Positions 23,127 to 62,517 of a stretch of 64,000 bases of DNA are shown piece after piece. How positions within the stretch are numbered: position 1 is the stretch's first letter; each line of letters opens with the position of its first letter. Source of the DNA: Haloarchaeobius amylolyticus (GTDB lineage Archaea > Halobacteriota > Halobacteria > Halobacteriales > Natrialbaceae). The translations under genes and the position numbers were made by a program. The DNA lies in contig NZ_JANHDH010000001.1 in the NCBI RefSeq assembly GCF_026616195.1, positions 2,294,001 to 2,358,000 of the forward strand, given 5' to 3'. The notes under the pieces were generated by a model, which was not told where the DNA came from, searched no databases, and saw nothing but the letters and a program-made list of their open reading frames with translations.

Positions 23127-23163
23127 CAGTCGTCCTGCCGGTCGGCCGACACGAGAGCGAAAC

Positions 23164-23332
23164 CGATAAACGACGGAATCCAGTACCTTCTCCCATGCAG
23201 TCCGCTCCCTGCTGGCGCTGGCGCAGTTTCCCGGGAGCGGACAGTATCGCGTGCGGCGTCGACGTGGCGTAACCGGGTCGGCGGCGGCGCGGTGCTCCCT
23301 TCGTTCTCTTCGTGCACCGCCCGACAGCCGCC
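23164..23332 (+). promoter_or_regulatory. Promoter and two-hairpin leader region of the second trpS
   Basis: It contains a TATA-like GATAAAC (23164-23170) and hairpin 1, with arms GTCCGCTCCC (23200-23209) and GGGAGCGGAC (23233-23242) around the Trp codons. Hairpin 2 lies after the leader stop, with arms GCGGTGC (23289-23295) and GCACCGC (23314-23320), an 18-base pyrimidine-rich loop and an outer GGCGGC/GCCGCC pair (23280-23285 and 23327-23332). Ribosome stalling on the Trp codons would prevent hairpin 1. How this would stop or permit transcription in an archaeon is not shown by sequence. Confidence 0.55.
23195..23272 (+). CDS. Putative Trp-codon leader peptide before the second trpS
   Basis: This is a 25-codon ORF, ATG at 23195 to TAA at 23270-23272, with product MQSAPCWRWRSFPG followed by 11 residues. 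It contains two Trp codons (23213-23215, 23219-23221) separated by one Arg codon, in a protein far too small to be an enzyme. GATAAAC at 23164-23170 lies about 28 bp before its ATG, so the message probably begins at or next to this ATG and the leader would be translated first. The Trp codons fall in the loop of a perfect 10-bp inverted repeat. The TrpRS gene starts 77 bp after the leader stop. The arrangement is that of an amino-acid attenuation leader; expression is not proven. Confidence 0.6.
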   Translation: MQSAPCWRWRSFPGADSIACGVDVA

Positions 23333-23349
23333 AGTCCCACGTATCCACG

Positions 23350-24582
23350 ATGACACGCCACGACGACACGACAGACGCACAGCACGCGACAGAGACAGGA
23401 GAACAGCACACGACCAGCGACACCGACGAGGACCCCGGGTTCACCGTCACGCCCTACGCCGTCTCCGGGACGGTCGACTACGACAGGTTGCTCGAGCAGT
23501 TCGGGGCGGACCGCCTCACCGCCGAGCAGGTCGACCGCTTCCCCGACCACCAGATGCTCCGCCGGGGCATCTACTACGCCGGCCGGGACGTCGACCCGTA
23601 CCTCGACGCTGCCGAGGCCGGCGAGACACACAGCATCGTCACCGGTATCGGGCCCTCGGGGCCGATGCACATCGGGCACGCGCCGGTGTTCTACGTCGCG
23701 AAGCGCCTGCAGGACGCCACGGGCGCGCACGTGTACATCCCGCTCTCCGACGACGAGAAGTACTACTCGAAGGACCTCACGTATCCCGAAATCGGCGAGT
23801 ACACGCGCCAGAACCTGCGGGACGTCCTCGCGGTCGGCTTCGACCCCGCGAAGACGACCATCGTCGTCGACACGGCCGACGCCGACGTGGTCTACCCCCT
23901 CGCGAGCGCGTTCGCGAGGCACCTCACGCAGGCGACGGTCGACGCCACCTACGGCGACCCCGAGAACGTCGGCCTCTCGTTCTACCCGGCGGTCCAGACC
24001 GCCCACCTGCTCCTGCCCCAGCTCGTCCACGGCGCGCACCCGACGCTGGTCCCGGTCGCGGTCGACCAGGACCCGCACGTCCGGGTGTGCCGGGACGTGG
24101 CCGCCAAGGAGCGGTTCCCGGTCCGGAAGCCGGGGGCACTTCTGGGGAAGTTCCTGCCGGACCTCTCCGGGCCGGGGAAGATGTCGAGCAGCGCCGACGT
24201 GCCGAGCATCACCCTCGACGACGACCCCGAGACCGTCCGCGACACGGTGCTGACCCACGCGTTCTCGGGCGGCCGGTCGAGCGTCGAGGAGCACCGCGAG
24301 CACGGCGGCGACCCGACGGTCGACGTGCCCTTCCAGCTCCTGCGGTTCTTCTTCGAACCGGACGACGAGGCGGTCGAGCGTCTCGCCCGCGAGTACCGGG
24401 CCGGCGACCTCCTGAGCGGAGAGCTGAAGGAGCTCGCGGCCGGGCGCATCACCGAGTTCCTCGCGGCCCACCAGGAGCGCAAGGCGGCCCTCGGCCCCCT
24501 CGAGGAGGAGCTGCCGGCGTACCGGCTCGGGCCTGCTGCGAAGCAGACGGCTCTGGAGGCGGTCGGTCTCGACCCCATCTGA
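23350..24582 (+). CDS. Tryptophanyl-tRNA synthetase, short second copy
   Basis: The 410-residue class I synthetase charges tRNA-Trp. The HIGH motif is GPMHIGHAP near residue 107 and the KMSKS loop is GPGKMSSSADVPS near residue 277. The nucleotide and tryptophan pocket segments SDDEKYYSKDLTY and VPVAVDQDPHVR are present, so it looks active. A second, longer TrpRS lies at 60940-62517, so this is probably an auxiliary or regulated copy. The N-terminal 30 residues are polar and repetitive in Thr/Asp. ATG 23350 was chosen because upstream residues of the frame are Arg-rich. Two regulator/exporter pairs follow, which could mark a resistance cassette. Confidence 0.88.
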   Translation: MTRHDDTTDAQHATETGEQHTTSDTDEDPGFTVTPYAVSGTVDYDRLLEQFGADRLTAEQVDRFPDHQMLRRGIYYAGRDVDPYLDAAEAGETHSIVTGIGPSGPMHIGHAPVFYVAKRLQDATGAHVYIPLSDDEKYYSKDLTYPEIGEYTRQNLRDVLAVGFDPAKTTIVVDTADADVVYPLASAFARHLTQATVDATYGDPENVGLSFYPAVQTAHLLLPQLVHGAHPTLVPVAVDQDPHVRVCRDVAAKERFPVRKPGALLGKFLPDLSGPGKMSSSADVPSITLDDDPETVRDTVLTHAFSGGRSSVEEHREHGGDPTVDVPFQLLRFFFEPDDEAVERLAREYRAGDLLSGELKELAAGRITEFLAAHQERKAALGPLEEELPAYRLGPAAKQTALEAVGLDPI

Positions 24583-60939: not shown

Positions 60940-62517
60940 ATGACGCGCGATTCCGAGTCGTCGACACCCGACGACGAGCTGGTTCCGGACGGTGGCGAGA
61001 CGGCCGCCGAGGGCGCCGACGAGGTCGCACTCGACCCGTGGGGGTCCTCGACGGTCTCCGACTACCGCAAGTTGTTCGAGGAGTTCGGCATCGAGGAGTT
61101 CGACGAGGTCCTGCCCGAAGTTCCGAACCCGCACTACCTGATGCGCCGCGGGGTCATCTTCGGCCACCGCGACTACCGCCCGGTCGCCGACGCGATGCGC
61201 GAGGGCGAGCCCTGGGCCGTCCTCTCCGGGTTCATGCCGACGGGCGACCCGCACATCGGGCACAAACTGGTGTTCGACGAGATCATCTGGCACCAGCAGC
61301 AGGGCGGGGAGGCGTACGGCCTCATCGCCGACCTGGAGGCCCACAGCGCCCGCGGGCTGACGTGGGAGGAGATCGACGAGCACTCGCGGGACTACATCCT
61401 GAGCCTGCTGGCGCTCGGGTTCGACCCCGCGGAGGGCGAACTCTACCGGCAGTCCGACAATCGAGAACTGCAGGACCTCGCCTTCGAGCTGGGCATCGAG
61501 GCGAACTACTCCGAGCTGCAGGCCATCTACGGCTTCGACGGCGAGACCGACGTGAGCCACATGCAGTCGGTCGTGACCCAGATGGCGGACATCCTCTACC
61601 CGCAACTGGACGAGCCGAAGCCGACCGTCATCCCGGTCGGCCCAGACCAGGACCCGCACATGCGCCTGGCGCGCGACCTGGCGACCCGGATGCGTTTCTT
61701 CAAGGTCTCGAAGGCGTACGCGAGCTTCGAGGCGGACGACGACGAGCGCGAACTCATCGCGGCGGCCTACGCCGCGCTGGCGGACGACGCGCCCGAGGGC
61801 GAGCCGGTCCGGTGTGAGGACGGCGCGGAGTGGCTGCGCGAGCACCAGCCCGAGCCGGCCGACGCCCGCGATTCCGCGGTGAAGAAGCTCGACTCCGCGG
61901 GGAAGGAGCCGCTCCGACCCCGGACCCGGTTCTTCGACCGGCAGGCGACCGACGCGGCGTTCGAGGCGCTCATCGACGCGGTCGAGGGCGAGAAGCGCGT
62001 CTACGAGGGCCACATCGATTCGTTCGACCTCGACCGAGGCGAGGCCGAGGAACTCGCCCGGCAGGTCGAGGTCGACCACGGCGGCTACGGCTTCATGCCA
62101 CCGTCGTCCATCTACCATCGGTTCATGACCGGGCTCACGGGCGGGAAGATGTCCTCGTCGGTCCCGGCGAGCCACATCAGCCTGCTCGACGACCCCGAGG
62201 ACGGCTACGACAAGGTGAAGTCGGCGACCACCGGCGGCCGCGAGACCGCCGAGGAGCAGCGCGAGAAGGGCGGCGAGGCCGACAAGTGCCCGGTGTACGA
62301 ACTCTATGCGTACCTGCTCGCGGGCGACGACGACGAGTTCGCGACCGAGGTGTACGAGGAGTGCGTCGGCGGCGAGCGCCTCTGTGGCGGCTGCAAGGAA
62401 CAGGCGGCCGAACTCATGGAGGAGTTCCTCGAAGAGCACCAGAAGAAGCGCGCGGAGGTCGCCGAACACCTCGACGACCTCGACATCGACCTCGACTCGG
62501 ACCGCAAGCGGAACTGA
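60940..62517 (+). CDS. Tryptophanyl-tRNA synthetase, long form
   Basis: The 525-residue synthetase has HIGH motif GDPHIGHKLVFD near residue 104 and KMSKS loop GGKMSSSVPASHIS near residue 404. Segments VSHMQSVVTQMADIL and PVGPDQDPHMRLARDL build the Trp and ATP pockets. An acidic insert follows the catalytic core (about residues 285-330) and the tail is strongly charged and coiled-coil-like. Since it has no leader ORF it is probably the housekeeping TrpRS, with the 410-residue copy auxiliary. It lies next to the tRNA-splicing enzyme, which removes the intron of tRNA-Trp in haloarchaea. Confidence 0.93.
   Translation: MTRDSESSTPDDELVPDGGETAAEGADEVALDPWGSSTVSDYRKLFEEFGIEEFDEVLPEVPNPHYLMRRGVIFGHRDYRPVADAMREGEPWAVLSGFMPTGDPHIGHKLVFDEIIWHQQQGGEAYGLIADLEAHSARGLTWEEIDEHSRDYILSLLALGFDPAEGELYRQSDNRELQDLAFELGIEANYSELQAIYGFDGETDVSHMQSVVTQMADILYPQLDEPKPTVIPVGPDQDPHMRLARDLATRMRFFKVSKAYASFEADDDERELIAAAYAALADDAPEGEPVRCEDGAEWLREHQPEPADARDSAVKKLDSAGKEPLRPRTRFFDRQATDAAFEALIDAVEGEKRVYEGHIDSFDLDRGEAEELARQVEVDHGGYGFMPPSSIYHRFMTGLTGGKMSSSVPASHISLLDDPEDGYDKVKSATTGGRETAEEQREKGGEADKCPVYELYAYLLAGDDDEFATEVYEECVGGERLCGGCKEQAAELMEEFLEEHQKKRAEVAEHLDDLDIDLDSDRKRN

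Follow-up and report, generated by a model that had tools for sequence, protein, structure and literature searches.

Attenuation by a leader peptide belongs to the textbook mechanisms of bacteria, known from the trp operons of E. coli (trpL) and its relatives, and the auxiliary TrpRS of Streptomyces is also controlled in this way. Could an archaeon use such a leader? The question is raised by a short ORF ahead of trpS2, one of the two TrpRS genes in the genome of Haloarchaeobius amylolyticus, in a stretch of 64 kb which we call the window. An earlier note, made from the sequence alone, had proposed an attenuator here: an ORF with Trp-Arg-Trp-Arg after a TATA-like site, a perfect 10-bp repeat with the Trp codons in its loop, and a second, 7-bp hairpin before the gene. 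Counted over the whole 64-kb window, perfect 10-bp inverted repeats that enclose a loop of 10-40 nt number 13, and WxW occurs in 6 of 288 short ATG ORFs. Such repeats and WxW ORFs could therefore arise by chance in one window, and relatives are needed to decide. For the leader and the first hairpin (P1) this doubt is gone, because relatives share both.

Leader ORF, promoter and hairpin P1

The leader ORF (Table 1) encodes MQSAPCWRWRSFPGADSIACGVDVA followed by a stop, as translated from the window, and ends 77 bp upstream of trpS2. In a family sample of 125 genomes, 79 of which have trpS2, the upstream DNA was inspected at all 83 trpS2 loci, and it turned out that the element is present at 81 of them and absent from L101 and L105. 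A homologous leader, such as MTSALEWQWRWxxPSRADSVVAAGDAA followed by a stop, stands at 77 loci, while four second trpS2 copies have a shorter leader ending RRWR or RLWR (L094, L098 and L100/L192 by direct reading, L099 by inference from a model match). The comparison with relatives shows that the leader is not a chance ORF.

Table 1. Positions of the leader, its RNA segments and the downstream gene in the window
Feature	Position	Strand	Remarks
BRE/TATA-like promoter of leader transcript	23158..23171	+	CGAAA 23158-23162 and GATAAAC (GATAAA about 23165-23170)
Leader ORF	23195..23272	+	25 codons; Trp at codons 7 and 9; homologous leaders in 81/83 family trpS2 loci
Segment 1 (P1 5' arm)	23200..23209	+	P1 paired in 93.9% of cells
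Trp-Arg-Trp codons UGG CGC UGG	23213..23221	+	inside P1 loop
Segment 2 (P1 3' arm; alternatively antiterminator 5' side)	23233..23242	+	nucleotides nearly fixed
P2 5' arm AGUAUCGCG	23243..23251	+	RNAalifold; covariation
P2 3' arm CGCGGUGCU	23288..23296	+	RNAalifold; covariation
Second hairpin of the earlier note, GCGGUGC/GCACCGC	23289..23320	+	arms GCGGTGC 23289-23295 and GCACCGC 23314-23320, outer GGCGGC/GCCGCC; lineage-limited; competes with P2
Segment 3, pyrimidine/U-rich CCCUUCGUUCUCUU	23297..23310	+	can pair with segment 2; candidate termination signal
trpS2	23350..24582	+	410 aa, class I tRNA synthetase, W/Y family; PF00579, E 5.7e-21; taken as the regulated gene

With a covariance model built from 51 leaders (R1), matches at E<=0.01 come from 191 of 392 genomes in the order and from more than 10 families, some of these matches being weak and chance-like. 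The window's own genome has a single strong match (E 8e-25; the next 0.2). A second model which included non-Trp members (R2) found nothing in 40 genomes without an R1 match, and Rfam was negative both over the window at gathering thresholds and, up to E=1, at the locus. Weak model matches at E>1e-4 (L183-L190) look chance-like and were set aside. As a separate observation, a short leader of the MSTSRETDERRWR-stop type, which ends within the P1 loop, is found at second trpS2 copies (L094, L098, L100, L180 and L292); some second copies are plasmid-borne, and Haloferax trpS2 copies are on plasmids too.

The BRE/TATA-like element lies about 27 nt before the leader ATG. When relatives are scored for a BRE/TATA element, 62 of 68 leader starts reach 7/9 or more, compared with 3 of 68 trpS starts and 13 of 340 random positions, and the profile relative to the leader start has AA at -35/-34, T at -30 and A at -11. 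No SD-like motif was found upstream of trpS in the 68 relatives examined. The spacing from promoter to leader implies a leaderless leader mRNA, the common type in Haloferax (PMC4983044), and it is likely, as inferred from promoter position, that the leader ORF is translated in this form. The sole sign in the sequence of a transcript running from before the leader into the gene is the promoter motif ahead of the leader and the lack of one at trpS.

The P1 arms are complementary at every position and the TGG codons fall in the loop. Both the ORF after its TATA-like site and the placing of the Trp codons in a perfect 10-bp repeat held as proposed. Over 82 aligned leaders, 93.9% of P1 cells are paired against at most 52% in slid registers, with 29 two-sided changes against 4.5 in shuffles. 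The nucleotides GGACAGU and GCUC are nearly invariant in the element, and the RNA of segment 2 is kept though it is read in another frame in L010, L204, L221 and L231.

Read as codons, the TGG triplets in the P1 loops of trp-linked leaders are in frame with the start in 331 cases and out of frame in 8, and at least one in-frame Trp precedes any stop in all 146 trp-linked leaders examined. Several lineages have an early stop within the loop, with loss of the C-terminus (e.g. MTSVPAVIVRWRWR and MTTSTHLGRWRWH, each followed by a stop); other leaders with an early stop or a frame shift include MSTFRETDVRRWR, again followed by a stop, and the frame-shifted MRSALRTWRWQTPGERTVS, also ending at a stop. 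The start codon, Trp codons and RNA arms are retained in truncated and frame-shifted leaders. The AGT and AGA codons of the arms are seldom used by neighbouring genes (3 of 79 Ser and 0 of 131 Arg codons), indicating that the arms are kept as RNA. One locus, L059 (G027), has a nonsense change at a Trp codon (EWQ-stop-RWQ, TGG to TGA) with the RNA otherwise intact.

Hairpin P2, segment 3 and the predicted switch

A second conserved hairpin, P2, was found by RNAalifold: 93.0% of its cells are paired against at most 75% when slid, there are 39 two-sided changes against 9.9 in shuffles, and its loop contains the leader stop codon. It is not the second hairpin of the earlier note. That one is present in the sequence; as a candidate for a conserved terminator it was rejected, since its support is weak and lineage-limited and its register is not fixed. 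Thus, in relatives, the Trp codons and the first hairpin are conserved and the second hairpin as proposed is not, while the proposal of an attenuator before the TrpRS gene largely held, with leader, P1 and position conserved family-wide and in a large part of the order.

After P2 comes a conserved stretch rich in pyrimidines, with the consensus CCCUYCGYUCGUUUUC (segment 3). In a fixed register, pairing between segments 2 and 3 is possible in 87.5% of cells against at most 65% when slid, and matched changes are seen in L058 (GAAGUGG with UUUACUUC), L069 (GAGUG with CACUC) and L083/L089 (GAGCGAA with UUUGCUC). P1 and P2 are firmer than this 2:3 pairing, because its complementarity is partly compositional: shuffled segment 3 yields 6.6 pairs against 8.2 for the real one, and segment 3 exchanged between species gives 7.2-7.3 pairs against 7.4 of 8 for the native one. 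Per-sequence 2:3 duplex energies barely beat those of shuffles (mean z -0.63) and alone are not significant.

In ViennaRNA folds of the unmasked leader, P1 has a mean probability of 0.88 and 2:3 of 0.06. We then blocked the 5' part as a ribosome with its A site on the first Trp codon would do (n=82), and the predicted 2:3 probability rose from 0.06 to 0.79, exceeding 0.5 in 71 of 82 leaders, with P2 remaining at 0.85 and the unpaired fraction of segment 3 falling from 0.62 to 0.18. The change in segment 3 was smaller in full-length folds (0.44 to 0.33 unpaired). Mutually exclusive RNA structures set by ribosome position are therefore a prediction from covariation and masked folding, in silico only, and the melting of hairpin 1 by a stalled ribosome, as first proposed, is corrected to a predicted choice between P1 and 2:3 pairing. 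Between the two predicted states the trpS start region shows no change (0.50 and 0.51 unpaired, p=0.40), which favours control ahead of trpS translation; sequestration of the trpS start was considered and rejected on this equal predicted accessibility.

Mapped H. volcanii terminators have a T stretch ending at C, with an upstream hairpin at 503 sites (PMC7237163). P2 with its pyrimidine/U-rich stretch resembles these Haloferax terminators, yet the U runs are short in many species. Consecutive U are few in segment 3 of many species, the segment of the window being UUCGUUCUCUU; in methanogens aCPSF1 binds U-tracts (PMC8716108), and by those data segment 3 of the window is weak.

Genes behind the element

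The element is not tied to trpS2, rio1 or an auxiliary TrpRS, and the link to rio1 and the auxiliary enzyme which had been drawn at first failed; trpS1, trpDFE and serS are also preceded by the element. The other TrpRS type (trpS1) has the element upstream at 15 loci, f4 genomes included, and in a small f15 genome it stands ahead of trpD-trpF-trpE (L201). Ser codons take the place of Trp in the loops of L247, L258 and L248, making up 10 of 24 loop codons with no Trp among them, and the downstream gene is a seryl-tRNA synthetase (PF02403, E 7e-28 in L247; L248 matches only over the first 118 residues), with Ser-rich leaders beginning MESTSRSRSQSSFWEVDS and MVSTSHSRSRPHRWEVDS. The loop codons are thus cognate to the gene, being Trp for trpS2, trpS1 and trpDFE and Ser for serS. 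Eight more matches precede GNAT, methyltransferase and ABC genes, with no one clear amino acid.

Among these, a RimL-like GNAT acetyltransferase follows the element in L177, L179, L245, L249 and L182, also without one clear amino acid, and it is possible that such leaders sense any ribosome stall. Downstream of the element in L173, L175 and L176 are a SAM methyltransferase (leader beginning MVSVSYLMRWLTFWEADS) and an ABC exporter (MSATGLGPVLWHGSTVADSALA followed by a stop). The second TrpRS gene of the window's genome, at about 60941-62517 of the window, is of the trpS1 type and has no element upstream. In 16 genomes, the trpCBA and trpDFEG promoters had no R2 element, and WxW leaders were missing close to trpC and trpF, apart from L317/L201 of G138 and chance-like ORFs; in the genomes examined, most of these operons are without the element.

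Besides, a conserved short ORF with the ending GFGFFF.. stands ahead of pheS in 19 of 20 genomes of haloarchaea (L261-L279), varying slightly between them and accompanied by a conserved stem TCCGAACCC/GGGTTCGG; in the window's own genome this leader is L274, about 170 bp ahead of pheS and outside the window. It is a second, different candidate attenuator, for Phe. A bolder reading, possible but somewhat less likely than not, is a general, re-programmable attenuator for translation stress in haloarchaea, in which loop codons are exchanged (Trp, Ser), a form without codon specificity, ahead of genes for a GNAT acetyltransferase, a methyltransferase and an ABC exporter, would be induced by any ribosome stall, e.g. 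by a drug, and the separate Phe leader (GFGFFF) would control pheS.

Proposed mechanism, rival explanations and known systems

A ribosome-mediated attenuator with stalling on cognate codons is likely the best explanation. It fits because of the compensatory changes, the in-frame Trp codons, the replacement of Trp by Ser before SerRS and the promoter at the leader only. Direct support is limited to conservation and covariation, to the specificity of frame and codon, to predicted folds that exclude each other and to a promoter only before the leader; there are no expression data, and stalling, premature termination and direction are inferred. Transcription would begin at or beside the leader ATG, as inferred from promoter position, and a ribosome would start on the leaderless ORF while RNA polymerase is still transcribing. 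With ample Trp-tRNA the ribosome would clear the UGG codons and P1 (1:2) would form, so that P2 and then an exposed pyrimidine/U-rich stretch would lead to an early end of transcription, probably by the archaeal U-tract pathway. When charged tRNA-Trp is scarce or TrpRS is inhibited, the ribosome would stall on the Trp codons and hold segment 1; 2:3 would then pair, lengthen P2 and bury the U-rich stretch, allowing read-through into trpS2. Starvation is thus inferred to raise trpS2 expression. The change of trpS expression under low charged tRNA-Trp which the earlier note had suggested remains inferred, as does the transcriptional readout.

The alternative closest to this view keeps the same sensing of Trp by a stalled ribosome and places the readout in mRNA cleavage or stability, or in trpS translation. 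In many species, that of the window among them, segment 3 makes a weak U-tract, so a cleavage or stability readout is possible; since aCPSF1 both binds and cleaves U-rich RNA, termination and cleavage may even be one event. However, trpS start accessibility is equal in both predicted states, and the order of P2 and then a T-rich stretch agrees with mapped Haloferax terminators; we consider this alternative unlikely. Less credible still is the opposite sign, in which a stalled ribosome uncovers downstream RNA and lowers trpS expression by polarity. Archaeal termination generally acts on untranslated RNA, which speaks for it, but the fold predicted for the stalled state buries the U-rich stretch instead of exposing it, and repression of aaRS and trpDFE genes by starvation would make little sense.

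The remaining explanations can be all but dismissed. In a T-box-like device, uncharged tRNA-Trp would read a UGG specifier directly, without translation; cognate codons in a hairpin loop and targets among aaRS and trp biosynthesis genes would suit it, but several cognate codons lie in frame with a conserved start, SerRS leaders have several Ser codons, the promoter position suits translation of a leaderless ORF, and Rfam has no match up to E=1. The near invariance of GGACAGU and GCUC could point to an operator, with the P1/P2 RNA bound by TrpRS or some other protein and the Trp codons incidental. Against it, unrelated enzymes are served (two TrpRS types, SerRS and TrpD) and the codons in the loop differ according to the gene. 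Peptide likeness across species would be expected if the ORF were a functional small-protein gene adjoining trpS by chance, but this likeness sits in the RNA arms with their uncommon codons, and C-termini are lost or frame-shifted in many lineages while the RNA is kept.

The preferred reading, attenuation by a stalled ribosome, shares with the E. coli trpL type a Trp-rich leader ORF, mutually exclusive hairpins with the fold chosen by ribosome position, and cognate biosynthetic or aaRS genes downstream. It differs in that the haloarchaeal element is archaeal, its leader ORF is probably leaderless and its leader stop lies in the P2 loop; only the P1 5' arm overlaps codons before the Trp run, and the alternative pairing is predicted to bury a U-rich stretch, with no terminator stem broken. 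As in the Streptomyces auxiliary TrpRS (on that resistance gene see Vecchione and Sello 2009, cited in PMC3436685), a second TrpRS gene has a Trp-codon leader, whereas the domain is different and the haloarchaeal element also precedes trpS1-type TrpRS (f4 genomes). T-box riboswitches likewise sense aminoacylation state and control aaRS and amino acid genes, but need no ORF, unlike the present element with its conserved start and several in-frame cognate codons. It probably works like bacterial attenuators with an RNA architecture of its own, without an Rfam match.

In dRNA-Seq of H. volcanii (PMC4983044, Table 2), a 23-aa uORF (2743 Da) is listed in the long 5'-UTR of HVO_A0127, a tryptophan-tRNA ligase whose gene has no additional TSS of its own, and a 26-aa uORF before pheS; both are listed as small proteins and attenuation was not proposed. 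The leader of H. mediterranei has 23 aa and 2703 Da, with a predicted 5'-UTR of 166 nt. The H. volcanii uORFs are very likely the same leaders, the match of HVO_A0127 resting only on length and 5'-UTR size in H. mediterranei. No earlier report of an archaeal leader-peptide attenuator was found in the open-access literature searched, subscription papers and preprints being outside the scope.

The element is carried by Haloferax species, which are genetically tractable. If the proposed mechanism is true, archaeal coupling of transcription and translation would be tight enough for a ribosome to steer transcription, this steering would involve a leaderless mRNA and the archaeal type of RNA polymerase, and the control would have arisen with its own RNA architecture.
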